Positions 27,979-42,711 of a stretch of 42,711 nt of DNA are shown piece by piece. The position numbers and the translations under genes were made by a program. The notes under the pieces were generated by a model. It was not told where the DNA came from, searched no databases, and saw only the letters and a program-made list of their open reading frames with translations. The DNA comes from Gammaproteobacteria bacterium (GTDB taxonomy: Bacteria; Pseudomonadota; Gammaproteobacteria; Tenderiales; Tenderiaceae), in assembly GCA_024277755.1 (NCBI GenBank), contig JAJRUN010000004.1, positions 1 to 42,711 of the forward strand, given 5' to 3'. The first letter of the stretch is position 1, and every line of letters begins with the position of its first letter.

Positions 27979-28794
27979 TTGACTGCACCCACGCAAATAC
28001 CTGTTGTCATAACTCTCTCAGGCAATGACCCGACGGGAGGCGCTGGAATACAGGCCGACATTGAGGCCATCGCCAGCATGGGCTGCCATGCCGCACCAGT
28101 GATCACCGCGCTTACGATACAAGATACAACTGGCGTCTCCCGTTTTGACCCGGTCGACCCAACCATCATCATCGAACAGGCTCGCGCAGTGCTCGAAGAC
28201 ATGCCTGTCGCCGCCTTCAAAATCGGCATGATAGGCAGCATGGAAAATGTTGAAGCCATTCACAGCATCCTGATCGACTACCCCGCCATTCCCGTGGTAC
28301 TCGACCCGGTTTTATCCGGCGGCGGCGGTGGCAGCCTGTCTGACCCGCATGTCATCGATGCCATCATTAGCATGCTGATTCCGCAAACCACCGTGTTTAC
28401 CCCCAACAGCAATGAAGCCCGCATTCTCGCCGCCGAAGCCGACAGCCTCGATGCCTGCGCCCAGGAACTGCTCGATATGGGTGCTGAGTTTGTTCTGGTT
28501 ACTGGCGCAGATGAAAACACCCCCACAGTGGAAAACCGCCTCTATGCCGAGCACCGCTGTCTGGAAACCTATACCTGGGAACGCCTGCCGCATCGCTATC
28601 ATGGCTCGGGGTGCACCCTAGCCTCAACCATCGCCGCAATGTTGGCCCAAGGGCTGGATCCCGCCATCGCCGTCCATGAGGCACAGGAATATACCTGGGA
28701 AGCGCTCAATAATGGCTATCGCATCGGCATGGGCCAACACCTGCCCAACCGCCTGTTCTGGGCCCGCGATGAAGACGAAAGTGAACAACCATGA
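27979..28794 (+). CDS. thiD: Hydroxymethylpyrimidine/phosphomethylpyrimidine kinase
   Basis: A 271-residue ribokinase-fold enzyme that phosphorylates HMP twice to give HMP-diphosphate for thiamine synthesis. Motifs: SGNDPTGGAGIQADI (about 14-28), FKIGMIGS, VLDPVLSGGGGG, and the anion-hole HGSGCTLAS (about 210-218). Start: TTG at 27979 with AAAGGA 8-13 bases upstream; the next in-frame ATG is at residue 34, which would cut the substrate site, so TTG is favoured. Its stop overlaps the thiE ATG (ATGA), a coupled operon. Confidence 0.93.
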   Translation: MTAPTQIPVVITLSGNDPTGGAGIQADIEAIASMGCHAAPVITALTIQDTTGVSRFDPVDPTIIIEQARAVLEDMPVAAFKIGMIGSMENVEAIHSILIDYPAIPVVLDPVLSGGGGGSLSDPHVIDAIISMLIPQTTVFTPNSNEARILAAEADSLDACAQELLDMGAEFVLVTGADENTPTVENRLYAEHRCLETYTWERLPHRYHGSGCTLASTIAAMLAQGLDPAIAVHEAQEYTWEALNNGYRIGMGQHLPNRLFWARDEDESEQP

Positions 28795-29408
28795 ATCCGC
28801 TATCAGGGCTCTACGCCATCACCGCTGGCCAGCTATCGACAGAAGGCAGGCTCATCCAGGCGGTCAGTGAAGCCATCGCCGGTGGTGCCCGCATCATTCA
28901 ATATCGCGACAAAAGTGATGATCCGTCACGACGTTTTCATGAAGCCCAACAGCTATTACAACTCTGCCATCAACACCACACCACCCTGATCATTAATGAC
29001 GACATTGATCTGGCCGCCGAGGTTGGTGCCGATGGCGTTCATCTCGGCCGCGACGACGGCAACATCGACTCCGCCCGCCAACAGCTCCCCAAAGGTATAA
29101 TCGGTGTCTCCTGTTACAATGATTGGCAACGGGCACAGGCCGCCACGCAGGCGGGGGCAGACTACATTGCCTTTGGTGCCTTTTTTCCGTCAACAACAAA
29201 ACCGGATGCACCCCAGGCAGAACCAAACCTGCTGCAACGCGTCAAACAGGAACTGAATATCGCCGTTGTCGCCATTGGCGGCATCACAGCAGAAAATGGC
29301 GCACCCTTGATCGACGCCGGGGCAGACATGCTAGCGGTGGTGCAAGGCGTGTTTGGCCAGCCCGACATCCGTCAGGCCGCCAGACAATACGCTCAATTAT
29401 TTAACTAA
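28791..29408 (+). CDS. thiE: Thiamine-phosphate synthase
   Basis: A 205-residue TIM-barrel enzyme that joins HMP-diphosphate and thiazole phosphate to make thiamine phosphate. Signatures: IQYRDKSDD (about 36-44), the [21 protein letters not shown] stretch with the Mg-binding Asp, [21 protein letters not shown] (about 124-138), and [10 protein letters not shown]. It is slightly shorter than average but complete. The ATGA overlap with thiD ensures coupled translation. hemL follows after 23 bases. Confidence 0.95.
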
Positions 29409-29431
29409 ATATTAAGAATGAAGGACGCAAC

Positions 29432-30712
29432 ATGACCCGTTCACACGATCTATTCCAGGCTGCCCAGAAACATATTCCGGGTGGCGTCAATTCACCCGTC
29501 CGTGCCTTTCGCGGTGTCGGTGGTGACCCCATTTTTTTCAAAAAGGGTGAAGGCGCTTACCTCTGGGACGAAGACGACAAGCAATACATCGACTATGTTG
29601 CCTCATGGGGCCCGGCCATTCTTGGTCACGCCCATCCCAAGGTGCTTGCTGCCGTGGCCGAGACCATTAAAAACGGCCTCAGTTTTGGTGCCCCCACCGA
29701 ACTGGAAACCCGCATGGCCGACCGTGTCTGCGATATTATGCCATCAATAGATATGATCCGGATGGTCAGCTCCGGCACCGAAGCCACCATGAGCGCCATC
29801 CGTCTGGCGCGTGGTTTCACCGGCCGCGACAAGATCGTTAAATTCGAAGGCTGTTACCACGGCCATGCCGATTCCCTACTGGTGAAGGCCGGTTCCGGCG
29901 CCCTGACCCTGGGTGTGCCCACCTCACCAGGTGTACCTGCGGCCCTGGCCGAACACACCCTCACCCTCGATTTCAACGATCTGGACCAGGTGCGTGACAC
30001 CTTCGCCAAGATCGGCGGTCAAATCGCCTGCATCATTGTTGAACCCGTGGCCGGCAATATGAACTGCATTCCACCCAAGGCCGGTTTCCTTGAAGGCCTG
30101 CGTGAAATCTGTGATCAATATGAATCAGTGCTGATTTTTGACGAGGTAATGACCGGCTTTCGCGTTGCCCTTGGCGGTGCCCAGGCACACTACGGCATCA
30201 TCCCTGACCTGACCACGCTGGGCAAGGTCATCGGCGGCGGCATGCCGGTGGGCGCCTTTGGCGGCAAACACGAAATCATGGAACAAATCTCTCCACTCGG
30301 CCCGGTCTATCAGGCTGGCACTCTGTCTGGCAATCCAGTAGCCATGGCTGCCGGTCTGGCCAATTTGGAAGAACTCTCCAAGCCCGGTGTTTATGAGGAA
30401 CTGAGTCACTTGACCGAAAAGCTGGCCAAAGGTCTGGTAACCCGCGCCAAGGCCTTCGACATTCCCATGTGTGAAAATCATGTCGGTGCCATGTTTGGCG
30501 TTTTCTTCTCCGGCGAAGAAAAGGTCGACAACTTCTATCAGGTCACCCAGTGTGACGTTGAACGCTTCAAGCTGTTTTATCACGGCATGTTGAACGAAGG
30601 CATCTACCTGGCCCCATCCGCCTACGAGGCCGGGTTTGTCTCTACGGCTCACAGCAAACGTGAGATCAAACAAACCCTGATCGCGGCAGAAAAGGTCTTC
30701 TCTACAATTTAA
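29432..30712 (+). CDS. hemL: Glutamate-1-semialdehyde 2,1-aminomutase
   Basis: A 426-residue PLP enzyme making 5-aminolevulinate, the first dedicated haem precursor in the C5 pathway. Motifs: [17 protein letters not shown] (about 15-31), [37 protein letters not shown] (about 236-248) and the lysine in [18 protein letters not shown] (about 263-280), which carries PLP. GAAGGA stands 6-11 bases before the ATG. It is close behind thiDE and may be cotranscribed; tas follows after 15 bases. Confidence 0.97.
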
Positions 30713-30727
30713 GCTGGAAATATACAC

Positions 30728-31768
30728 ATGCAATACCGCCGCCTCGGCCGCACGGATATCAACGTCAGCGCCCTCTGCCTTGGCACCATGACCTATGGTG
30801 AGCAAAACAGCGAGACTGAGGCCCATCAGCAACTCGATGCCGCCCTGGCGGCGGGCATCAATTTTATCGACACCGCCGAAATGTATCCGGTGCCACCCAT
30901 GGGCGAGACTCAGGGCTTAACCGAGACCTACATCGGTTCCTGGCTCAAGGCCCGTGGCAACCGTGACCAGGTCATTCTGGCCACCAAGGTCTCTGGACCA
31001 TCAGCAGCATTCACCCATCTGCGTGGTGGCAAGCTCGGTTTTGACCACCATAATATCGAAACAGCTTTAAACCAAAGCCTGCAACGGCTGCAAACCGATT
31101 ACGTCGATCTGTATCAATTGCACTGGCCCGAACGCAGCACCAACTATTTTGGTCAGCTGGGTTATCAACAGCCGGAAAATGACAGCTTCACCGCCTTTGA
31201 AGCAGTGCTGACCGTGCTGGCCGAACAGGTTCAGGCTGGCAAAATTCGCCACATCGGTCTATCCAACGAAACACCCTGGGGCAGCATGCGCTTTCTGCAA
31301 CTAGCAGAACAACTCAGCCTGCCCCGTGTCGTCAGCATCCAAAACCCCTATTCACTGCTGAATCGTAGCTTTGAAGTGGGCCTGGCCGAAATCGCCCATC
31401 GTGAAGACCTGGGGCTGCTGGCCTATTCACCCCTGGCCTTTGGTGTGTTGAGCGGTAAATACCTGGACGGCCCCTGGCCGGCTGATGGCCGCCTGACCTT
31501 GTTCGACCGCTTTGTTCGCTACACCAGCCCTCAAGGCGTGGCTGCCACCCGCGCCTATGTTGAACTGGCCCGCGACCACAACCTGCAACCAGCACAAATG
31601 GCACTCGCCTATGTCACCAGCCGGCCGTTTGTCAGCAGCAATATCATCGGTGCCACCACCATGGCGCAACTGCAACAAAACATCGACAGCGCTGACTTGA
31701 ACTTGTCTGGCGAAGTACTGGATGCCATCGAAGCCATACATCAACAATATACCTACCCATGTCCATAA
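30728..31768 (+). CDS. tas: Aldo/keto reductase, Tas type
   Basis: A 346-residue NADPH-dependent TIM-barrel oxidoreductase, very similar in sequence to E. coli Tas: MQYRRLGRTDINVSALCLGTMTYGEQNSETEAHQQL-type start, IDTAEMYPVPP with the catalytic Asp and Tyr, TKVSGP with the Lys, and QLHWPERSTNYFG with the His, so the tetrad is complete. IQNPYSLLNRSFEVGLAEI and GATTMAQLQQNI also match. The natural substrate of Tas is not known. Its stop overlaps the start of the LVIVD protein gene by 10 bases. Confidence 0.9.
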   Translation: MQYRRLGRTDINVSALCLGTMTYGEQNSETEAHQQLDAALAAGINFIDTAEMYPVPPMGETQGLTETYIGSWLKARGNRDQVILATKVSGPSAAFTHLRGGKLGFDHHNIETALNQSLQRLQTDYVDLYQLHWPERSTNYFGQLGYQQPENDSFTAFEAVLTVLAEQVQAGKIRHIGLSNETPWGSMRFLQLAEQLSLPRVVSIQNPYSLLNRSFEVGLAEIAHREDLGLLAYSPLAFGVLSGKYLDGPWPADGRLTLFDRFVRYTSPQGVAATRAYVELARDHNLQPAQMALAYVTSRPFVSSNIIGATTMAQLQQNIDSADLNLSGEVLDAIEAIHQQYTYPCP

Positions 31769-34509
31769 AGATGAAAACACCGCTACGCTCCCTGATTATG
31801 GCCATGTTGGGGCTGGGTTTTTGCACCAGCCTGCAAGCTGCCGTCACAATTGAACCCGCTGTTGTCCCTGTGGGCAAGGCCAGCCAGGTGACAATAGGCT
31901 TCGATCATGCGGAAACAATTGCCGCCATCAACCTGCAACCGGGCAGCCCCTATCTGAAACAACGCCTCAATCTAAACGGTAAAAATAACGGCGACTATCA
32001 GGTCAGTCGCCGCCACAACGGTATTTATATCCGTGATCGTGACAACAGGCTAATCGCCTTTTTCGACAGCGAGCGCCCCAGTGTCAACAGCCACCACTAT
32101 CAGTTTGCCGCCGCCAATGAGCGCGGCATGCAAGTCTACAAAGAGCATGACTGGGGCCAAAAATCTCCTGTTGCCACGTATCGAACCAGCAGCCCAGCAC
32201 TGGATATCAGCGTTGATAATGGCCTGGCCTTTTTGGCCACCGGTATGGGAGGGTTAACCGTGCTGAACGTGGAAAATACAGAGCAGCCCCAATGGTTGGG
32301 TAGCCATCAAAAATTGGGGCGAGCAATAAAAGTATCTTCTAAAGCTGGTCGGGTAGCGGTTTTGAATGATAGTGGTATCGTTTTTTTACTCGATATCCGC
32401 AACCCGGTGGAGCCCACCACCATCAGCAGCTACCGCAGTGATGCCCCCCTGCTGGACATTGCTCTGCACCAAAACCAGCTGTTTGCACTGACCAACCACG
32501 AGATTCAGGTCATCGATTTCAGCGCCATCACCCCACAACTCAGCAACGAGGGTTTGGACTTCGGCCAGGGCGTCAATCTGGGTGGCGAGCGCCGCGCCTT
32601 TATCCACAACCAGCTGGCGTATGTTGCCGACTGGTTCTCCGGCATCCACATCTATGATCTGAGTCGGCCACGTCAGCCTGAGCTGCTGTCCAGCTTCCAC
32701 ACCCCCGGCTCGCCCAAGGGCATTGTCGTCCGTGACGGGGTGGCCTTTGTCGCCGATGACGATCATGGCCTGCAGATCATCGATGTCAGCGATCCCGTGA
32801 ATCCGAAACAGATTTCAACCCTGCTGACCCAGGGTCTGGCCTACACCCCTCGATTGGTTGGCGACCTGCTTTACCTCGCCAGCCATCGCGGCGGCTTTCA
32901 AATCATCGACGTCAGCGATGTCACCCAGCCTGAATTAATCAGCGAATACGATACCGACGGCAAGGCCTGGTCGATGGAGGTGCATGACAACATCGCCTAT
33001 ATCGCTGACGACGACACCGGCCTATTGATGTTCGATGTCACTGATCCGGCCACCCCCGAGCTGATCGGTCAGTATTTCACCGCTGCCGCAGCCGAAGAAG
33101 TAACCATCCGTGACAACATCGCTTACGTCGCCTTCTTCGATGATGGCCTGCATATCCTCGATATCAGTGAACCAAGTCATCCAAAACTCATCAGCCAACT
33201 GGCCATTCCCGGCAATGCCCGTGGTCTGGATTTGATCGATGACAAACTCTATGTCGCTGGCTGGTTGTCCGGGGTACATGTGGTGGATGTCAGCAATATT
33301 AAACAGCCTAAACTGCTGGGCAGCCATGACACCCGTGGTGCCAGCTGGGGCCTGAAAATTGAAGGCCAGCTCCTCTATGCCATGGACTGGTGGGGCGGCA
33401 TCAGCGTCATTGATGTCAGCAATGCAAGCCAGCCAACAGCCGTGGGCGGTTACCACAATCGTGGCCGGGTCAATCACATCGCCGCCCAGGGCAATTACAC
33501 CTTTGTCGCCCAGGGCAGCAACGGCCTACAGGTGTTTGATATCAATAATCCACTCAATCCAACCTGGACCACCGGCATCAGCTTTCCCGGTCAGGCCAGA
33601 CAAGCGACAATCCATGAGCAACGCGCCTATGTCGCCGCTGGTGATGGTGGCATGGCCATTGTCGATATCAGCAACCCCTTCAATATCCGTTGGCTGGGCA
33701 GCTATGACAGCCTCGGTGAAACCCGTGCCGTGACAGCTGATGCTGACTACGCCTATCTGATCGACAGCCATGAAGGCTTGGTGGCTATCAGCATCGACAA
33801 AGACAATCCACGCAAACTAGCCAGCCTCAACATTAAGGTCAATGACCTGTGGCTGCATGACGGTCTGCTCTACCTTGCGACTGATAAGGGGGTTGAGGTG
33901 GTGCAACTGAATAAAGACGAGCAGTTTGAATTCGTCAGTCAATTTGAAATCAACGCTGGCGCACAGCAAATCACAGGAGACAGCCAGCGTGTTTATGTCA
34001 GCAGTGGCAACACTGTTCTTAACCTGCAACGCAAATCATTACAGCAACTCAGCAAGATCAAGATTGACGGCCGGATCACCGATCTGCAAGCCAACCCGTC
34101 ACAACTGTTGGTCAGCACCGGCAATACCCTGTTCAGCATCGACAAGCGTAACTCACAATTGACCAACCGCTACCCGCTGCTGGCCAGTAGCAGCGCCATT
34201 ACCTATCACCGCGGAGTGGTATACATCAGTGGCGAAGAGACCATTACCGCACTCCGCCCCATGCCAAACCTGCAACAGCAATCGCAGGGACTGGCCGTGA
34301 TTCAATTCAACCTGCCCGAGACCTTGAGCATCGGCAGCTATAATCTCAACATCCGCTATCAAGATGGTTCAGATGAAATCATTCACAACGCCATTCAAGT
34401 TGAAATGCCGATATTTTCCAAACCCAAGTTGAACATGGATGATTTCAAAAAACTGCTGCAACAACAGAAACAAAATAGCGACCTATTCACTGATCCGTCA
34501 GCTAAATAG
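31759..34509 (+). CDS. Large secreted LVIVD-repeat beta-propeller protein
   Basis: A 916-residue protein with a signal peptide (about 1-27, cleavage after LQA). About twelve to thirteen LVIVD repeats of roughly 40-45 residues span about 140-680; the core reads G-L-x-I-x-D-V-S-x-P-x-x-P-x-L-x-G. Each repeat also shows an A-Y-V-A-x-x-D/W-x-G-x strand (AYVADWFSG, AFVADDDHG, AYIADDDTG). The N- and C-terminal parts are unrelated to the repeats, and the C-terminal tail is Gln-rich. Such propellers sit in the periplasm or on the cell surface and are thought to bind partners. The start at ATG 31759 overlaps tas; ATG 31771 is an alternative, neither with a good ribosome binding site. Confidence 0.85.
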   Translation: MSIKMKTPLRSLIMAMLGLGFCTSLQAAVTIEPAVVPVGKASQVTIGFDHAETIAAINLQPGSPYLKQRLNLNGKNNGDYQVSRRHNGIYIRDRDNRLIAFFDSERPSVNSHHYQFAAANERGMQVYKEHDWGQKSPVATYRTSSPALDISVDNGLAFLATGMGGLTVLNVENTEQPQWLGSHQKLGRAIKVSSKAGRVAVLNDSGIVFLLDIRNPVEPTTISSYRSDAPLLDIALHQNQLFALTNHEIQVIDFSAITPQLSNEGLDFGQGVNLGGERRAFIHNQLAYVADWFSGIHIYDLSRPRQPELLSSFHTPGSPKGIVVRDGVAFVADDDHGLQIIDVSDPVNPKQISTLLTQGLAYTPRLVGDLLYLASHRGGFQIIDVSDVTQPELISEYDTDGKAWSMEVHDNIAYIADDDTGLLMFDVTDPATPELIGQYFTAAAAEEVTIRDNIAYVAFFDDGLHILDISEPSHPKLISQLAIPGNARGLDLIDDKLYVAGWLSGVHVVDVSNIKQPKLLGSHDTRGASWGLKIEGQLLYAMDWWGGISVIDVSNASQPTAVGGYHNRGRVNHIAAQGNYTFVAQGSNGLQVFDINNPLNPTWTTGISFPGQARQATIHEQRAYVAAGDGGMAIVDISNPFNIRWLGSYDSLGETRAVTADADYAYLIDSHEGLVAISIDKDNPRKLASLNIKVNDLWLHDGLLYLATDKGVEVVQLNKDEQFEFVSQFEINAGAQQITGDSQRVYVSSGNTVLNLQRKSLQQLSKIKIDGRITDLQANPSQLLVSTGNTLFSIDKRNSQLTNRYPLLASSSAITYHRGVVYISGEETITALRPMPNLQQQSQGLAVIQFNLPETLSIGSYNLNIRYQDGSDEIIHNAIQVEMPIFSKPKLNMDDFKKLLQQQKQNSDLFTDPSAK

Positions 34510-34751: not shown

Positions 34752-35672
34752 ATGACTCGCTTGCTTGGCATACTGCTAATACTTTTATCGGCACTGACAA
34801 ATCCTCTACACGCTGCCAGTGATGGGCCTGACAAGCTGTTAATCTTATTGCCCGAGATTAATGCCACATACAACCGCATCTTCGGCGAAATTCTCACCGG
34901 CATCGCCGCCCATAATGGTGTCAGCATCTACGCCTATTCACTCACCAAAGACAGCAAAAAAAACGATATACAAAACGAAATCGACAACAACCAGATTGAC
35001 GCTATTATTGCACTGGGGCACGCCAGCTATAATATTTCTAAAAAGTTTCAAGACCAGCTGCCAGTCATACATGGCGGCATGGTCATCACCCCGAATGGTC
35101 ACAGCGGCATTAGCCTGGTTGGCTCTCCCACTCAGTTCTTTGCCCACTTAAAAAATATTGCGCCAAACGTTAAACGTGTCTTCACTGTATACAATGAAAA
35201 AAACAGTGGCTGGCTAATACGCATCGCCGAGGAAGAAGCCCTCAAATTGAATATTGAACTACGAGCATTAGAAGCCTCGGATATTCGCAGTGCGGCGCGG
35301 AATTTTAAAACCATCCTGTCTGAAGCCAGCAGTACCACAGATGCCATATGGTTACTGTTTGATAAGGTCGTGCCAAACCAAACCATCTTGCCATTGGCAC
35401 TTGATGCCGTCTGGAAAAAGAACATCATCCTGTTCTCAAATAACCCGGCTTATACAAAACGTGGCGCTCTGTTTTCGCTTTTCCCTGACTATGAAAAAAT
35501 GGGCTACAGTCTGGCCGAATTCAGCAAAAAACAAATCAACACCAAGACTCCCTTAGTGATCCCATTGTCGAGCCTGAAGGTATCCGTCAACGAACGAACG
35601 GCATCACACCTAGGGCTGAATCACTCCAGTGGTCAACGTGCATCTTTCGACATTATTTACCCCCTCAGATAG
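34752..35672 (+). CDS. Periplasmic substrate-binding protein (ABC_sub_bind type)
   Basis: A 306-residue protein with a signal peptide (hydrophobic 4-17, cleavage after LHA at 21) and a periplasmic type I binding-protein fold of the ABC_sub_bind/TrpX kind. Seen: LLILLPEINATYNRIFGEILTGI, IDAIIALGHASYNISK, VKRVFTVYNEKNSGWLIRIAEEEA and the C-terminal hinge pattern ALDAVWKKNIILFSNNP. No ABC permease or ATPase gene is next to it. Instead a sensor kinase starts 14 bases later, so it is probably the ligand-binding partner of that kinase. Ligand unknown; aromatic amino acids or related compounds are typical of the family. Confidence 0.85.
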   Translation: MTRLLGILLILLSALTNPLHAASDGPDKLLILLPEINATYNRIFGEILTGIAAHNGVSIYAYSLTKDSKKNDIQNEIDNNQIDAIIALGHASYNISKKFQDQLPVIHGGMVITPNGHSGISLVGSPTQFFAHLKNIAPNVKRVFTVYNEKNSGWLIRIAEEEALKLNIELRALEASDIRSAARNFKTILSEASSTTDAIWLLFDKVVPNQTILPLALDAVWKKNIILFSNNPAYTKRGALFSLFPDYEKMGYSLAEFSKKQINTKTPLVIPLSSLKVSVNERTASHLGLNHSSGQRASFDIIYPLR

Positions 35673-35686
35673 AAAGAATAAAAGCA

Positions 35687-37219
35687 GTGGCCAACACACA
35701 AAACAAAACAAAAAGTTTCCGTGCGCAGCTAACGGCAATCGTTACTATTGGCATAGTGGTGCTTGCCATTGCCAGTGCACTCTCATCCGCCTGGATAACA
35801 AAGGTTCATATAGAAGATCAGTTATTTGAAGATGGGCAACAAATCACGGAATCATTGGCAAAACAGTCAGCACTGGCACTGATATACGATAGCCCGGAAA
35901 ACGCCAAAGATGCTGCTGATACGGCGATGGGATTCCCGGATATTGAACAACTTGCCATTGTAGACACCAACAACAAGGTAATCCTCCAACGTGGTGGCTT
36001 TCTAAAAACAAGCAATATTAGTAATTCTGACAAGCAAATAGTTTCATTGCTGGAAGAAGGCATTAATCACTGGATATTTCTAGCACCTGTTTTTCTCACC
36101 TCAGAGACAACGACTGATGATGCAACCCTGCTATTCCAGTCTGAAATTAAAAAAGAGTTACTCGGCTATGTTCTGGTTAAAAAAGAAAAGAGCAAAATCA
36201 ATGAAGTTTTCTATGCCGCCATTATCAATAACCTTGGTATCAGCCTGTTATTTTCCACCCTGCTATTGTTAGTCATACACATTTTCTTCAATCGCCTGAT
36301 TACCCCTCTGGACAACCTGGCATCTGTTATGGAACGTGCAGAGGATGAAAAAACAAATGTGCTTGCAACCGAGGAGGGTCCACGCGAGGTAATTGGACTT
36401 GCCCGGGCCTTTAACAAAATGATAGAAGCACTGGCAGAACAGCAGGAACAGCTAAAACACCACAATGAAATTTTGGAATATGAGGTTGAAGAACGCACAC
36501 GCGATTTAGTCTATGCACGTGATATGGCAATCAAAGCCAACCGCAACAAATCAAACTTTCTTTCAAATATCAGCCATGAGCTTCGCACTCCATTACAATC
36601 CATACTTGGATATAGCGACCTGATTATTGAGGTTCTGCCACAAGAACAGGGTGACATTCAACATGATGTAAATACCATTATTCAAAATGCTGAGCATTTG
36701 CTGCAAATGATCAATTCCATCCTGGATTTGGCTAAGGCTGAAGCAGGTAAAATAGATATAAAACTAAAACCAGCAAATCTCAATCAATTTGTTGCAGATG
36801 TAGTCAGCACCATAAAACCTCTAATGATCCCCAATAACAACAAATTTCAGCTCTCCAAACAGCTCAACCAAGACGAAATCAATATTGATGCCATTAAATT
36901 ACGTCAAATATTACTCAATTTATTAGGCAATGCGGCTAAATTTACCCACGATGGGACCGTTAACTTTAGTGCTATACAAACATCAGATACGCTGCAATTT
37001 CAAATAAAAGACAGCGGCATTGGCATGAATAAAGACCAGGTTGAACATATTTTCGATCCCTTTTACCAAATTGATGGCAGTCACACACGTCGCTACGAAG
37101 GCACTGGGTTAGGCCTCGCGATTACCTATCAATTTTGTCAATTAATGGAGGGGTCTATAACCGTTGAGAGCGAAGAAGGAATTGGATCAACGTTCAATGT
37201 GATTATTCCTTTGAATTAA
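35687..37219 (+). CDS. Transmembrane sensor histidine kinase
   Basis: A 510-residue inner-membrane kinase. TM1 (about 13-35) and TM2 (about 183-205) enclose a periplasmic domain of about 145 residues. HAMP follows (about 206-260), then a coiled coil, HisKA with phospho-acceptor His297 in SHELRTPLQSILG, and HATPase_c (LLGNAAKFT, DSGIGM, GTGLGLAI). GTG start at 35687, 14 bases after the binding-protein gene. The downstream response regulator with GGDEF-EAL output is 31 bases away and is the likely phosphate acceptor. Confidence 0.92.
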   Translation: MANTQNKTKSFRAQLTAIVTIGIVVLAIASALSSAWITKVHIEDQLFEDGQQITESLAKQSALALIYDSPENAKDAADTAMGFPDIEQLAIVDTNNKVILQRGGFLKTSNISNSDKQIVSLLEEGINHWIFLAPVFLTSETTTDDATLLFQSEIKKELLGYVLVKKEKSKINEVFYAAIINNLGISLLFSTLLLLVIHIFFNRLITPLDNLASVMERAEDEKTNVLATEEGPREVIGLARAFNKMIEALAEQQEQLKHHNEILEYEVEERTRDLVYARDMAIKANRNKSNFLSNISHELRTPLQSILGYSDLIIEVLPQEQGDIQHDVNTIIQNAEHLLQMINSILDLAKAEAGKIDIKLKPANLNQFVADVVSTIKPLMIPNNNKFQLSKQLNQDEINIDAIKLRQILLNLLGNAAKFTHDGTVNFSAIQTSDTLQFQIKDSGIGMNKDQVEHIFDPFYQIDGSHTRRYEGTGLGLAITYQFCQLMEGSITVESEEGIGSTFNVIIPLN

Positions 37220-37250
37220 ATTTTTTACGGCTCTAATCCCTAAAGGATGT

Positions 37251-39761
37251 ATGGAGGAAGTTGTTTTGGAGATTGGACAAAATGTCATGATTGTCAGCAT
37301 GGATGAAATGCAGAAAAATGCAATTCACCATGTACTGGTACAATCCGGCTTTAAAAACCTTATTTCTGCCATTGGTAGTCAGGCAGCCATTAATTTACTT
37401 GCTGATAATCAATTTGACGCTATTGTCTGTGCGGTAGACCTAAAACCTGTCGATGGCTGGCGATTCGCCAGAATAATTCGTTCAGGTGCGCTGACAATCA
37501 AATCAAACACACCCATCGTCATGCTGTCTGACGGCTATAGCGAACGCATTGCCCTCGCCACGTCAAAAGCATTTCAGATTAATCGTTTCATTCCTTATGA
37601 AAAATTTCATACCCTGCCATCTGTCTTATCAGATCTTTTTCGTCAGAACAACCCAGGCGCACCCAAATCAAGCCTGCTAATTATTGAAGACTATCCAGAC
37701 ACCGTTGAACTCTGCAAACGTGTGTTATCAAATCGTTTTGATATTGACGTAGCAACAACCGGAAAGTCGGGACTGGATAGCTGGATGCAGAAGCGTCATG
37801 ACCTCGTTCTACTAGACGTCATGTTGCCCGAAATGTCTGGCAATCAAGTACTAAAAAAAATCATTAATGAATCACCCAGCCAGTCCATCGTGATGATGAC
37901 AGCACAATCAACACCAGAACGTGCCGCACAACTCATTATTGACGGCGCTGTTGATTATATTTCAAAACCATTTCGTGCAGATCAATTACGCCAGGTCTGT
38001 GAAATTGCAGTTCAACGTCAGGATTTTATCCTCAGCAATAAAGAATTCACTGAACATGAACAGGCCCTGCACCGAGAAAAAGAACTAGCCGAGATCACAC
38101 TACAATCCATTGCCGATGGTGTCATCCGAACCAATGCTCTGGGACAAATTGAATATATGAATCCTGCGGCTGAACAAATTACCGCCTGGAAACAGTCTGA
38201 ATCACTAAACAAGCCAGTCACAAATATTCTCCGTAGTTTCTTCGACAACAATAAACCTGCATCGAGTCCTGTTGATATCTGCCTAAACAAGCACGCTACA
38301 ATTTTTAGCTCCCCGGATATTAGTTATCTGAATCGAAATGGTACAAAACTAAAAATTGATCATGTCACCTCTCCCATTAGAAACCGAACTAATGACATTA
38401 TTGGTGCTGTTATGGTATTTCGCGACATTACCGAAGAACATGAACTGGCAATAAAACTCGACTATCAAGCCAAACATGATGCCCTTACCGGACTGGCCAA
38501 TCGTTCTGCCTTTGAAAACAATTTAGAAAAAATGATTACCAGCATCAACCGCAATGGGGATGAACATGCCCTCTGTTATATCGACCTTGATCAATTCAAA
38601 ATTATAAATGATACCTGCGGCCATATTGCGGGTGACCAATTATTGCAAAAGGTATCTTCAATCATTCTCAACAAAACCCGTTTAAACAGAGACACCTTGG
38701 CACGCTTTGGTGGTGACGAGTTTGTATTATTACTATCAGACTGCCCCCTTGACCATGCCGTACGAATTACCGAAGAAATTTGTAAAGAGATACATGAATA
38801 CCGCTTTATCTATGATAATAAAACTTTTGCCGTTGGTGCCAGCATAGGCGTTGTACCCATCACTGAAAAAATAACCAATGTTAATGATGCCCTGCGCATG
38901 GCAGATAATGCCTGTTATGTCGCTAAAGAAAAAGGCCGTAACCGTATTCATATCTATCATGCCAACGACCATGAAATGGTTAAGCGCAGTGGTGAAATGC
39001 ACATCGTCTCGACAATCAACCATGCACTTGAAAATGATGGCTTCTCGCTTTTTTATCAAGACATTAAATCATTAACCGATACCGGTTTGGGTAAGCATAT
39101 TGAAATCTTAATTCGAATGAAGGATGGAAATGGAGGTTGGATAACACCTGGATTATTCCTTCCCACAGCAGAGCGTTATAACATTGCACCCAAGATTGAT
39201 CGCTGGGTCGTAAGCTCTCTAATGAGCTGGTTATCCAACAACAAACATTGCCTTGATCAAATGGAAATGTGTTCCATAAATCTTTCAGGACTGTCATTCA
39301 GTGATGAAAAATTTTCCAGCTTCGTTAAACATGAGATTCAATCAAAAGGGATTCCGGCTAAAAAAATATGTTTTGAAATCACTGAAACAGCGGCTATTGG
39401 CAATCTTCAGGATGCCATCGACTTCATTCACACAATGAAAAAATCTGGTTGTTCATTTGCATTAGATGACTTTGGCAGTGGTATGTCCTCTTATGCCTAT
39501 TTAAAAGCATTGCCAGTCGATTATCTGAAAATTGACGGCATGTTTGTAAAAGATATTCTTATTGATCCGATCGATAAAGCCATGGTGAAATCAATTAATG
39601 AAATCGGACACGTATTCGGATTAAAGACCATTGCCGAATTTGTTGAAAATATAGACATAATGTCTGACCTAAAAGATCTCGGTGTTGATTATGCACAGGG
39701 CTATGCCATCAATAAACCAGCACACATCGATACCTTTTATGACAGCAACGCTTATTCTTAG
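37251..39761 (+). CDS. REC-REC-PAS-GGDEF-EAL response regulator
   Basis: An 836-residue cytoplasmic c-di-GMP enzyme. REC1 (about 1-120) has a single acidic Asp63 but lacks the usual acidic pair, so it may be degenerate. REC2 (about 140-260) has IIEDYPD, phospho-acceptor Asp189 in LLDVMLP and Lys in ISKPFR. A PAS domain (about 280-405) comes next. GGDEF (487-491) is intact, but RxxD at the I-site is not in the right place. EAL is E-I-L (Glu618), and the NLSG, ITET, LDDFGSG, LKID and QGY residues are kept, so phosphodiesterase activity is likely. Start: AAAGGA then ATG. The stop codon TAG is formed by a MITE insertion; the ancestral codon was TAA. Confidence 0.93.
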   Translation: MEEVVLEIGQNVMIVSMDEMQKNAIHHVLVQSGFKNLISAIGSQAAINLLADNQFDAIVCAVDLKPVDGWRFARIIRSGALTIKSNTPIVMLSDGYSERIALATSKAFQINRFIPYEKFHTLPSVLSDLFRQNNPGAPKSSLLIIEDYPDTVELCKRVLSNRFDIDVATTGKSGLDSWMQKRHDLVLLDVMLPEMSGNQVLKKIINESPSQSIVMMTAQSTPERAAQLIIDGAVDYISKPFRADQLRQVCEIAVQRQDFILSNKEFTEHEQALHREKELAEITLQSIADGVIRTNALGQIEYMNPAAEQITAWKQSESLNKPVTNILRSFFDNNKPASSPVDICLNKHATIFSSPDISYLNRNGTKLKIDHVTSPIRNRTNDIIGAVMVFRDITEEHELAIKLDYQAKHDALTGLANRSAFENNLEKMITSINRNGDEHALCYIDLDQFKIINDTCGHIAGDQLLQKVSSIILNKTRLNRDTLARFGGDEFVLLLSDCPLDHAVRITEEICKEIHEYRFIYDNKTFAVGASIGVVPITEKITNVNDALRMADNACYVAKEKGRNRIHIYHANDHEMVKRSGEMHIVSTINHALENDGFSLFYQDIKSLTDTGLGKHIEILIRMKDGNGGWITPGLFLPTAERYNIAPKIDRWVVSSLMSWLSNNKHCLDQMEMCSINLSGLSFSDEKFSSFVKHEIQSKGIPAKKICFEITETAAIGNLQDAIDFIHTMKKSGCSFALDDFGSGMSSYAYLKALPVDYLKIDGMFVKDILIDPIDKAMVKSINEIGHVFGLKTIAEFVENIDIMSDLKDLGVDYAQGYAINKPAHIDTFYDSNAYS

Positions 39762-39986: not shown

Positions 39987-40835
39987 TTAATTTCGGTCCG
40001 GAACATCCCTTGCGACAACCCCTTGATAATCAATATCATCACAGCGTAGGGGTAAAAAGGAGTTAGGAATTTTATCGCGCGTGTCAACATAACAAGCCGT
40101 TACACCACTGGAAACTAATGTGGCATACATCCTATAGGCCTCTTCACCAGTGAAGCCCTGGTCTGATAAAAAGGCAGATACATAACCATTGATGTTCATG
40201 CTTTCGTTATAATTCGTTGCTAGATAGTCTTCTATCCTATAGGCCAGCGTCAGATGCTCGCCAATATCAAAATCCAATTGTTCTGTTACTCTTTCCATTG
40301 CAGCAATACGCTCATCACCTTTGGCAATGGGCCGCGCATAGCCCATTATTTCCGGTTTTCCCCTGCGTACACGATTGCCAGATAAAACAATCTCTTCGAT
40401 TGACTTCCCAGCCTGGGAGTCCAGGCAGGCGTGTTGAATAAAAGCCAAGCCTTCAATTAACGGCCGCACCCCGTAAGCCCGCGCATCTGTGGCCAAAGTG
40501 CCGGCACAGGTGGCCGCCATGGCAGAGGTTTGCATAGTGCCTGCCAATGCCCCGATCTGGTTACACCAGATACGCGGGTCTGGCCAACTCAGGCAAATAA
40601 ACACCGCCTCAACCCAATCTGCCAGGGGTCGCTCTGGCAGTCGACCCGTGGCATTAAGCATGACCACCTGCATATAGGATGTCTTGCCAACAAAATCATC
40701 CATCATGGAATAACCGTGATTAAAGATCCCTTGGCCAATCTTCCAACCGCCTTTGCTGCTGAATATCTTGCCGCGCCGTTGATCCCAAAAGCCGGTGTTA
40801 TTTTTCATATTCAATCTGGTAGTCCTCATCGGCAA
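39987..40835 (-). CDS. Citrate synthase-fold protein, second of a pair
   Basis: A 282-residue divergent member of the citrate synthase/citryl-CoA lyase superfamily. Fold landmarks: GYSMMDDFVGKTSYMQVV, TGRLPERPLADWVEA, SWPDPRIWCNQIGALAGT, KPEIMGYARPIAKGDER and GYVSAFLSDQGF. By eye alignment, the catalytic His, His and Asp of citrate synthase are replaced here (MGYAR in place of the GFGHR-type loop; MNING in place of DFYSG). The start overlaps the upstream paralogue by 38 bases, so translation is coupled; a later ATG (MKNNTGF, 40808) is possible. Likely a regulatory or complementary subunit; function unknown. Confidence 0.75.
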   Translation of the reverse strand: MPMRTTRLNMKNNTGFWDQRRGKIFSSKGGWKIGQGIFNHGYSMMDDFVGKTSYMQVVMLNATGRLPERPLADWVEAVFICLSWPDPRIWCNQIGALAGTMQTSAMAATCAGTLATDARAYGVRPLIEGLAFIQHACLDSQAGKSIEEIVLSGNRVRRGKPEIMGYARPIAKGDERIAAMERVTEQLDFDIGEHLTLAYRIEDYLATNYNESMNINGYVSAFLSDQGFTGEEAYRMYATLVSSGVTACYVDTRDKIPNSFLPLRCDDIDYQGVVARDVPDRN

Positions 40836-41628
40836 TGAAGGGCATGGCGGTCATGGGTTTATTGGCCAACTCTACACCGTGAGCAAATAGACCCGGGGCA
40901 CTGATAATTTGATAAATGCCCGCCGCCGCACGGGGTTGAAAACCCAGGTCTGTCAGCACGGCGGCAACGATGCCTGTGGTCAGCCAGCCCATGCCCTCTT
41001 CGGCCAATGCCCGGGCGAACTGCTGCCCCCAACTGAGTGCAGTGCCTGCCGCAGGCATTTGCAGCAAATGCCCGGCAATTTGTTGGCTCATATTGTCGAT
41101 GCCGCTGTAATGGCTGCCAAACCCCGGGGCAATATTACAGTCACCTTCGGCGGGCCATTCAATCGTTGTCAATAACTGCCGTGCCGTATCCTGTGCCGGT
41201 TTACGTTGTTGTTGGCGCAAAAAACGCATGCCCTCTTCCAGGCTGCCAGCGCCATTATGTTTGCCACTCAGGGTGGTTAAGGCAATGGGTAAAATTAAGC
41301 CCGGGTCAGTCTTGCCAATCCCTGCATTCATGGCGGCACGGGTGGCCGGATGGCGTGGGCCGGGATTGATAAAAGCGACCATCAGCGCTTCAAGTAAAGA
41401 AGCCTCGTCCGCAGTAGGCAATTCACCGCGAAACAATAAATAAAGCACATCAACAAAGCTGCGCTTTTGCATCAACTGCATCAGGTCATAGCCATGACAA
41501 CGGCTTTGAGCCGTGATATAGGCGTTATCTGCCGCAGGCAACTCTTGCCAGAGGCGGGTTGCCGTGCGCTTGACATAAACATCATCCCGCTTGCGAACCT
41601 GGGCCGAGGGTTTGGCGCTGCTACTCAT
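40798..41628 (-). CDS. Citrate synthase/citryl-CoA lyase-like protein, first of a pair
   Basis: A 276-residue protein resembling short citryl-CoA-lyase-type members of the citrate synthase family, about 150 residues shorter than housekeeping GltA. Landmarks: CHGYDLMQLMQKRSFVDVLYLLFRGELP, LSGKHNGAGSLEEGM (equivalent of the first catalytic His), APGFGSHYSGIDN (second His region, altered), GWLTTGIVAAVLTDLGF (Asp lost) and ISAPGLFAHGVE. It lies 4 bases downstream of the TonB receptor stop and overlaps its paralogue, suggesting one operon of receptor plus two citrate-synthase-like proteins. A role in metabolism of an imported citrate-related compound is a guess. Confidence 0.78.
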   Translation of the reverse strand: MSSSAKPSAQVRKRDDVYVKRTATRLWQELPAADNAYITAQSRCHGYDLMQLMQKRSFVDVLYLLFRGELPTADEASLLEALMVAFINPGPRHPATRAAMNAGIGKTDPGLILPIALTTLSGKHNGAGSLEEGMRFLRQQQRKPAQDTARQLLTTIEWPAEGDCNIAPGFGSHYSGIDNMSQQIAGHLLQMPAAGTALSWGQQFARALAEEGMGWLTTGIVAAVLTDLGFQPRAAAGIYQIISAPGLFAHGVELANKPMTAMPFIADEDYQIEYEK

Positions 41629-41632
41629 ATCG

Positions 41633-42711
41633 TTATTTCAGCTTATATTGTGCTTGCAGATAAACCGCACGGCCTTCCAGTGGATAATCATCGGAGATGA
41701 CACCATTACTCGGTTCACGGGCATCGTCATCAAAGGCATTTTTGGCACTCAGTGCAAACTGCCAAGGCTGATTATAAGGCCGGTAGCGCAGGGCTAAATT
41801 CACCGTGGTGTAATCACCAATGGCGGAGCGGCTGTCAGCCACATCACGGGCACGGTCAGCCACCCAGTTAGCCTGACCATACAGTGACCATGCCGCTATC
41901 AACTTGTGATCAAGCGCCACAAATAGTTGCCGCCTGGGGGCATCCTTGATGGCTAATCCGTCACTATCATTAGTGGAATATTGCAGGGCCACATTAGCCT
42001 TGAGCTGCGTGGCATTGCTTAGCGCCCAGCTGGCCTCAAACTCAAGCCCATGACCATTCTGTTTGCGAATATTTTCTGCCGTACCGTTAACAAACTCAAT
42101 CAAGTCATCGGCCTGATAGACAAATAAATTCAGCATGGTTTGCAAATCAAAGGTGGGGCGGTAGTCAAAAACCAGTTCCAGCATATCGATTTTTTCCGGC
42201 TCAAGATCCGGGTTACCCAGGACAACCGGATTATTTTCAAAAAACAGCTCGGTCAAACTGGGGGCTCGAAAGGCGCGACCATATAACAGCTTGCTGGTAA
42301 GGTTATAGTCCATGGCCCACACCAGGGCCAGGCGTGGATTGGTAGTGCTGCCAAAATCGGAATAATCATCATAGCGAATACCGGCCGTCAGCTCCCAGTC
42401 ACGCCCCAGGCGCAACTCGTCCTGAAACGAAACATAACGCACGGTGCGTGAGCGATCCTGAACGTAAATATTTGCCGTGCCGGTCAAGTCGGTTAAGGTG
42501 CCACTGACGGGACTCACTGTTCCATCGATAACACCGGGGCCAAAGTTTTTTGTTTCCGTTGCTTTAAGCTCATCACGATCAAGCCCCACCGCCAGGCGTA
42601 AGCGGTGACCCTGCCAACCCTCATAAGCCGCCGCGACTTCAAGACGGGAATCCGTCAGTTTTCCACCTGGATTCCCCCAAATGCCATCGGGAAAAGAGAC
42701 CATACAGGGTG
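41633..42711 (-). CDS. TonB-dependent outer-membrane receptor, C-terminal part
   Basis: At least 358 residues of a TonB-dependent receptor beta-barrel; the frame is open to the right edge of the window, so the plug domain and TonB box are outside it. The ATG at 42703 is most likely internal. Seen: GIRYDDYSDFG, PRLALVWAMDYNLTSKLLYGRAFRAPSLTELFF and the NPDLEPEK motif (typical NPxLxPE), alternating amphipathic strands to the end. The C-terminus is YKLK, not a Phe, which is unusual for barrels. The ligand is unknown; iron-siderophore or organic-acid complexes are possible, given the citrate-synthase-like genes downstream. Confidence 0.88.
   Translation of the reverse strand, partial: PCMVSFPDGIWGNPGGKLTDSRLEVAAAYEGWQGHRLRLAVGLDRDELKATETKNFGPGVIDGTVSPVSGTLTDLTGTANIYVQDRSRTVRYVSFQDELRLGRDWELTAGIRYDDYSDFGSTTNPRLALVWAMDYNLTSKLLYGRAFRAPSLTELFFENNPVVLGNPDLEPEKIDMLELVFDYRPTFDLQTMLNLFVYQADDLIEFVNGTAENIRKQNGHGLEFEASWALSNATQLKANVALQYSTNDSDGLAIKDAPRRQLFVALDHKLIAAWSLYGQANWVADRARDVADSRSAIGDYTTVNLALRYRPYNQPWQFALSAKNAFDDDAREPSNGVISDDYPLEGRAVYLQAQYKLK

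Follow-up and report, generated by a model that had tools for sequence, protein, structure and literature searches.

Paired citrate-synthase-fold proteins with replaced catalytic residues in a recurring ThDP-enzyme cluster that may make and sense a small molecule

Signalling systems of the Rpf/DSF and Lqs/Phc types carry a synthase gene beside that of a sensor kinase, with c-di-GMP as the output of DSF, and the PqsB-PqsC condensing enzyme of Pseudomonas aeruginosa arose from a diverged paralogue pair and acts inside a signal pathway. YfiBNR of P. aeruginosa places c-di-GMP under the periplasmic control of YfiR (PMC4655355). The locus described here resembles Rpf/DSF and Lqs/Phc in its gene layout, in which a putative synthase gene adjoins that of a sensor kinase, and differs from them in its synthase enzymes and in the addition of a TonB receptor and a periplasmic binding protein. 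Its two central proteins, A and B, resemble the citryl-CoA lyase of Hydrogenobacter thermophilus (6hxp) and the CCL module of ATP-citrate lyase in fold, length and overall sequence, but in both of them the catalytic His, His and Asp are replaced, they form an obligate-looking paralogue pair, and their linkage is with a ThDP enzyme and with sensors, not with citryl-CoA synthetase. The likeness to PqsB-PqsC is one of analogy only, the folds being unrelated (thiolase versus citrate synthase). The nearest solved relatives of the ThDP partner are BbmA (8x3x) and CsmA (8x3z), followed by acetolactate synthase; unlike BbmA and CsmA, the family found here has about 60 extra residues. The open-access literature offered nothing relevant on the cluster, on BbmA/CsmA, on YfiR-TonB arrangements or on ThDP signal synthases, which given that scope is weak evidence of absence.

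The window, meaning the whole 42,711-nucleotide stretch that was analysed, is an entire contig (G000:C138), and the 5' part of its TonB-dependent receptor gene is lost at the contig end at 42711. What is left of this gene (41633..42711, minus strand; PF00593, 128.6 bits) encodes the C-terminal 358 aa of the barrel and is 91% identical to a full-length relative of 723 aa in the sister locus L002. The gene for A (40798..41628, minus strand; 276 aa, with an NPGPR motif) begins 4 bases past the receptor stop codon and is followed by that for B (39987..40835, minus strand; 282 aa, with WPDPRIWCN and GYARP..DER motifs). The reading frames and the order of a receptor and two overlapping genes reported in the preliminary description hold. 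The 38-base overlap given there is obtained only with a TTG start at 40835, while the ATG codons at 40829 and 40808 give 32 and 11 bases; the choice of reading frame was mechanical here and at the other loci. Convergent with B lies a gene for a receiver-PAS-GGDEF-EAL protein of c-di-GMP turnover (37251..39761, plus strand), preceded by one for an sCache-HAMP-HisKA-HATPase histidine kinase (35687..37219, plus strand), both assigned by domain scan and by their linkage in relatives. A PF04392 periplasmic binding protein (SBP; 34752..35672, plus strand; 46 bits), the probable sensor component, comes before them and adjoins A/B in most relatives. These sensing genes (34752-39761) and the ThDP gene expected off the contig fall outside the region that had been described before, and the link to them had not been drawn.

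The proposal that A and B are degenerate members of the citrate-synthase fold is confirmed by profile searches and by predicted models. A scores 88.8 bits against the NCBIfam citryl-CoA lyase profile and 27.5 bits against Pfam PF00285, and B scores 51.4 bits against the former; for both proteins the best NCBIfam scores lie far below the curated cut-offs of 193-409 bits for PRK06224. Profile matches to the citryl-CoA lyase 6hxp reach 100 bits for A and 65 bits for B, and the same structure is the top match of the AlphaFold models, each folded as a single chain (A: pLDDT 83.9, E 2.5e-11; B: pLDDT 73.0, a moderate confidence, E 1.1e-8). A role of A/B as the cell's citrate synthase was ruled out, as the true citrate synthase sits on another contig of the genome (C112).

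The catalytic positions were located by aligning A and B with 6hxp and with citrate synthases, and their residues were tallied over 61 sequences of A and 57 of B; an intact His-His-Asp set is absent from both chains in all of them. At the first position of A, residue 124, His is present in 26 of 61 sequences and is otherwise replaced by Leu, Tyr, Asn, Phe, Val or Arg; His at position 172 and Asp at position 218 occur in none of the 61. None of the 57 B sequences has the catalytic residue at any of the three positions (His at 120, Asp at 216), and the second position is occupied by R168 in 56 of them. The earlier statement that A keeps one catalytic residue and B none thus describes the sequences of the window but does not extend to the family, and the lack of conservation at A124 makes this His an unlikely survivor of the catalytic set. 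What B has instead is a near-invariant set comprising S83, P85, R88, W90, N92, Y121, R168, D174-E175-R176, N214, C248 and R276, in which R176 corresponds in the alignment to the Arg in the D-P-R motif of citryl-CoA lyase, and A keeps N88, G90, R92, H250 and E253. A P-x-P-R motif stands at the same place in A (89-92) and B (85-88) and is missing from citryl-CoA lyase in those alignments. The suggestion of one catalytic and one regulatory chain, as far as it is read from the remaining His of A, finds no support, since that His varies and the conserved polar set is located mainly in B; a catalytic role of A by virtue of this His is rejected.

Loci for comparison were drawn from named genome contigs, from relatives and from 369 sampled gammaproteobacterial genomes, with genes labelled by profile and BLAST. 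Metagenome-assembled genomes account for many of them, and binning errors may lie behind a few of the taxon labels, such as that of the Pirellulaceae contig L014. What was computed directly comprises gene content, linkage, pairing, the loss of residues and the fold. Reduction to less than 80% identity left 47 non-redundant A loci, of which 45 carry B and 41 a TonB receptor within 9 kb; the pair is not scattered, and it usually occurs beside the receptor. A and B are each monophyletic (support 99/97 and 100/100), and together they split from citryl-CoA lyase, ATP-citrate lyase, citrate synthase and one unlinked A-like protein with support of 95/86, under long-branch warnings. This topology fits a single duplication of an already altered ancestor. 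Across 57 loci the identity matrices of A and B correlate with r=0.93, a value reached in 0 of 500 permutations and in part due to shared phylogeny, and correlations with the ThDP enzyme are lower (0.51 and 0.54). The fact that A and B are almost never apart, together with the correlation of their matrices, suggests that they most likely act as a heteromer. Residue counts, pairing and tree all agree with the earlier idea of two proteins that are conserved together and whose active site has been replaced. At one locus of Cellvibrio sp. UBA7671 (L011:8783-10375) B and the next SDR gene form one 530-aa frame, possibly through a fusion or an assembly error, and at L013 B and SDR are separate overlapping genes.

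The closest partner of the pair is an acetolactate-synthase-type ThDP enzyme, a finding that does not favour the earlier view of A/B as handling a citrate siderophore or organic acid imported by the receptor. This enzyme is encoded within 9 kb at 35 of the 47 A loci, and at 28 of the 34 that have more than 6 kb of context on both sides. With E-values calculated per genome, A is found strongly (E<1e-20) in 42 of the 369 gammaproteobacterial genomes and the ThDP enzyme in 47, and the 38 genomes that share them compare with about 5 expected if the two were independent. Among the genomes with A only, two (the window's own and G009) stop at a contig edge behind the TonB gene, and in one (G044) the genes for ThDP, A and B are broken. 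The window's own ThDP gene most probably lay just past the contig end, because the gene order in the sister genome (L002, 91% identical) is ThDP-TonB-A-B; a location elsewhere in the window's genome was considered and set aside, the search yielding only acetolactate-synthase-like proteins of 28% identity. The ThDP protein has the three TPP domains PF02776, PF00205 and PF02775 and invariant residues H103-E104, G512-D513-G514 and N539, which cover the cofactor Glu and the GDG...N motif. It matches BbmA with 297 bits, CsmA with 268 bits and acetolactate synthase with 191 bits, and 2-hydroxyacyl-CoA lyase and oxalyl-CoA decarboxylase are also among its matches. ThDP genes distant from A/B occur in some genomes (G081, G206, G210), and those of the G213/G315 type are located elsewhere with no adjoining A/B.

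Several variants of the ThDP gene were seen in passing. Within the window's genus, loci L030 and L031 hold a second ThDP gene (about 53% identical), and loci L030 and L032 hold extra TonB receptors. The decaying cluster of G044 (L039, G044:C1) has ThDP, A, B and TonB all interrupted, with the kinase and GGDEF-EAL genes still open. At L111:1543-8251 (G074) the ThDP protein carries about 300 extra N-terminal residues with no Pfam match there, and its gene adjoins those for an amidohydrolase and a multihaem cytochrome-like protein.

One genome (G047) has the ThDP enzyme and A fused in a single 886-aa protein. This fusion, the constant linkage to the ThDP gene and the loss of every classical catalytic residue could all be accommodated if A and B were not enzymes but a regulatory or substrate-presenting pair for the ThDP enzyme, much like the small subunits of acetolactate synthase, with the rest of the system still making and sensing a molecule. 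We regard a non-enzymatic pair as improbable: where the active site used to be, B keeps a dense set of near-invariant polar residues (R88, W90, N92, Y121, R168 and D174-E175-R176), and R176 lines up with the D-P-R Arg. Both features suit a role in binding substrate or in catalysis no less well.

Sensory genes are the most frequent further neighbours. Within 9 kb of A, a histidine kinase is found at 27 of the 47 loci, a PF04392 protein at 24 and a GGDEF/EAL protein at 20, with SDR (7), MCP (6), YfiR (4) and O-methyltransferase (3) genes being rarer; sensing genes like those of the window adjoin A/B in different families, and in the window's own family most genomes with an SBP and A/B keep the two at one locus. 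Four loci (L005-L008) have genes for YfiR and for a CHASE8-GGDEF-EAL protein in place of the PF04392-type sensing genes, and Cellvibrio has YfiR and the kinase as one fused protein; the YfiR-like periplasmic domain recalls YfiBNR, but here it stands beside TonB, A/B and ThDP. Recurring extras are either MCP, CheW and a CheR-like gene (CheR recognised by eye) or a set of receiver-SpoIIE, STAS, MCP, CheB and CheD. The receiver-SpoIIE phosphatase and STAS genes lie beside ThDP at L041, L084, L085, L087 and L110, mostly with MCP-CheB-CheD.

The receptor itself best matches the colicin I receptor, BtuB and FepA-type receptors among solved structures, and the full-length relative in L031, the one scanned, consists of Plug and barrel without the N-terminal STN signalling domain of a FecA-type transducer. 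TonB receptors usually carry metal complexes, and hydroxy-acid products could chelate, so that ThDP-A-B may be thought to make a hydroxy-acid or hydroxy-ketone chelator whose metal complex is recovered by the receptor and sensed by the kinase. This is the nearest form of the siderophore idea in the preliminary description. We consider it the least probable of the readings discussed here, because a scan with a simple consensus, limited to Fur-type sites among those of metal regulators, gave at p<=0.02 no Fur-box enrichment upstream of TonB (0/55), ThDP (2/58) or the other genes, the window's own upstream region being missing, and because no ABC or MFS importer of metal complexes recurs. More generally, no inner-membrane transporter was found to recur across the neighbourhoods, and the iron or citrate siderophore role was rejected for want of Fur boxes, of such a transporter and of recurring siderophore-type genes.

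A held-out test, in which the phylum was scanned with B, returned eight genomes of other classes, and ThDP, A and B occur together in all eight. Four of them have the order TonB-A-B-ThDP and a histidine kinase gene after it, and one of these four was confirmed to carry PF04392. In the fetched stretch of the other four (L133-L136) no TonB receptor was detected, and the next-door gene encodes a Ser/Thr kinase-AAA-ATPase protein of 1727-1771 aa in three loci and 653 aa in L134; the one full-length protein scanned also has GAF and histidine kinase domains. Three of these four loci carry a LuxR-type response regulator or a relative of it, and one has ACP and AMP-ligase genes behind B. ThDP-A-B is kept in 8/8 genomes and the kinase is swapped in four, so these three genes are the core and the sensor is exchangeable. 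The latter four loci, with a different kinase and no receptor in the fetched sequence, lend no support to the earlier proposal of a receptor-imported compound. Two loci with ThDP-TonB-SBP-HK and no A/B have their slot filled by a KAS III-like protein and a 131-aa unknown (L110, G043) or by a methyltransferase (L113, G141). Together with the SDR, O-methyltransferase, ACP and AMP-ligase genes near the core, these are biosynthetic accessories.

The sequence of the core is compatible with either reaction direction, and a catabolic module has to be weighed, in which the receptor imports a scarce organic compound, the SBP and kinase detect it, and ThDP and A/B cleave it, acting as lyases in the manner of citryl-CoA lyase or 2-hydroxyacyl-CoA lyase. 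A TonB receptor, SBP and kinase beside enzymes is a common uptake layout, the fold family of A/B includes lyases, and ThDP enzymes are also able to cleave, 2-hydroxyacyl-CoA lyase and oxalyl-CoA decarboxylase being among the matches. Degradation nevertheless seems to us rather unlikely: no inner-membrane transporter recurs, the kinases have c-di-GMP and chemosensory proteins as their outputs, four of the genomes from other classes have ThDP-A-B but no TonB receptor nearby, and the KAS III, ACP and AMP-ligase neighbours are biosynthetic. The biosynthetic accessories, exchangeable kinases, c-di-GMP and chemosensory outputs and missing transporter instead favour the making and sensing of a molecule over import and degradation.

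We therefore give about an even chance to the explanation that ThDP-A-B makes a small diffusible molecule, with A and B as a heteromer bearing a new site, and that the linked receptor and kinase sense it. The acetolactate-synthase-like ThDP enzyme would give a product of the acyloin or acetolactate type. A and B, which stem from a duplicated citryl-CoA lyase or citrate synthase ancestor, would form a heteromer in which the His/His/Asp set has given way to a new R/W/N/Y/R/D-E-R set, mostly B's, and which may supply or process the acyl acceptor or a CoA ester. The product might be finished by the SDR or methyltransferase in some lineages, leave the cell and be re-collected via the TonB receptor. 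Once in the periplasm it would be detected by the PF04392 or YfiR protein together with the histidine kinase, and the output would run through c-di-GMP, chemosensory proteins or both. The linkage between the putative synthase and the sensor kinase is strong; we infer the synthase role of ThDP-A-B and the receptor role of the kinase, and likewise that the reaction runs towards biosynthesis, that a heteromer assembles, what the product is, what the receptor and sensor bind, and the output. Against this explanation, a TonB receptor would be an unusual partner of a small diffusible signal, since such receptors more often serve metal complexes or large ligands, the window itself ends before any ThDP gene, and some genomes have ThDP far from A/B. 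The wider proposition, a widespread undescribed signalling system of Pseudomonadota in which the ThDP enzyme and a new-site heteromer make a new class of signal, with dedicated TonB retrieval and interchangeable kinases controlling c-di-GMP and chemosensory arrays, is a tentative one that we think possible but would not expect to hold in full.

As read from gene sequence, the cluster looks like an undescribed bacterial route to make and sense a small molecule. Annotation would name A and B from the citryl-CoA lyase family; the catalytic residues of that family are absent from them, and they belong to the core of a recurring ThDP cluster tied to kinases and c-di-GMP. A is carried by about 11% of the sampled gammaproteobacterial genomes, from many families, and the core is present in other classes as well. 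If the core does make a signal, it would represent new chemistry for bacterial communication and a new heteromeric re-use of the citrate-synthase fold. Named strains among the carriers, Cellvibrio sp. OA-2007 and Motiliproteus sp. MSK22-1, make the system testable.

Upstream of the SBP, the window holds thiD-like (PF08543), thiE-like (PF02581) and class-III aminotransferase genes (27979-30712). Thiamine synthesis genes near a ThDP system are curious, and thiD-thiE was considered as support for a thiamine link and set aside; the group is probably an ordinary housekeeping cluster, because the aminotransferase gene recurs beside the locus in L033 and L036. Between this group and the SBP (30728-34509), an aldo/keto reductase gene overlaps one for a 916-aa LVIVD-repeat beta-propeller, relatives of which adjoin the SBP in the same two loci, L033 and L036.
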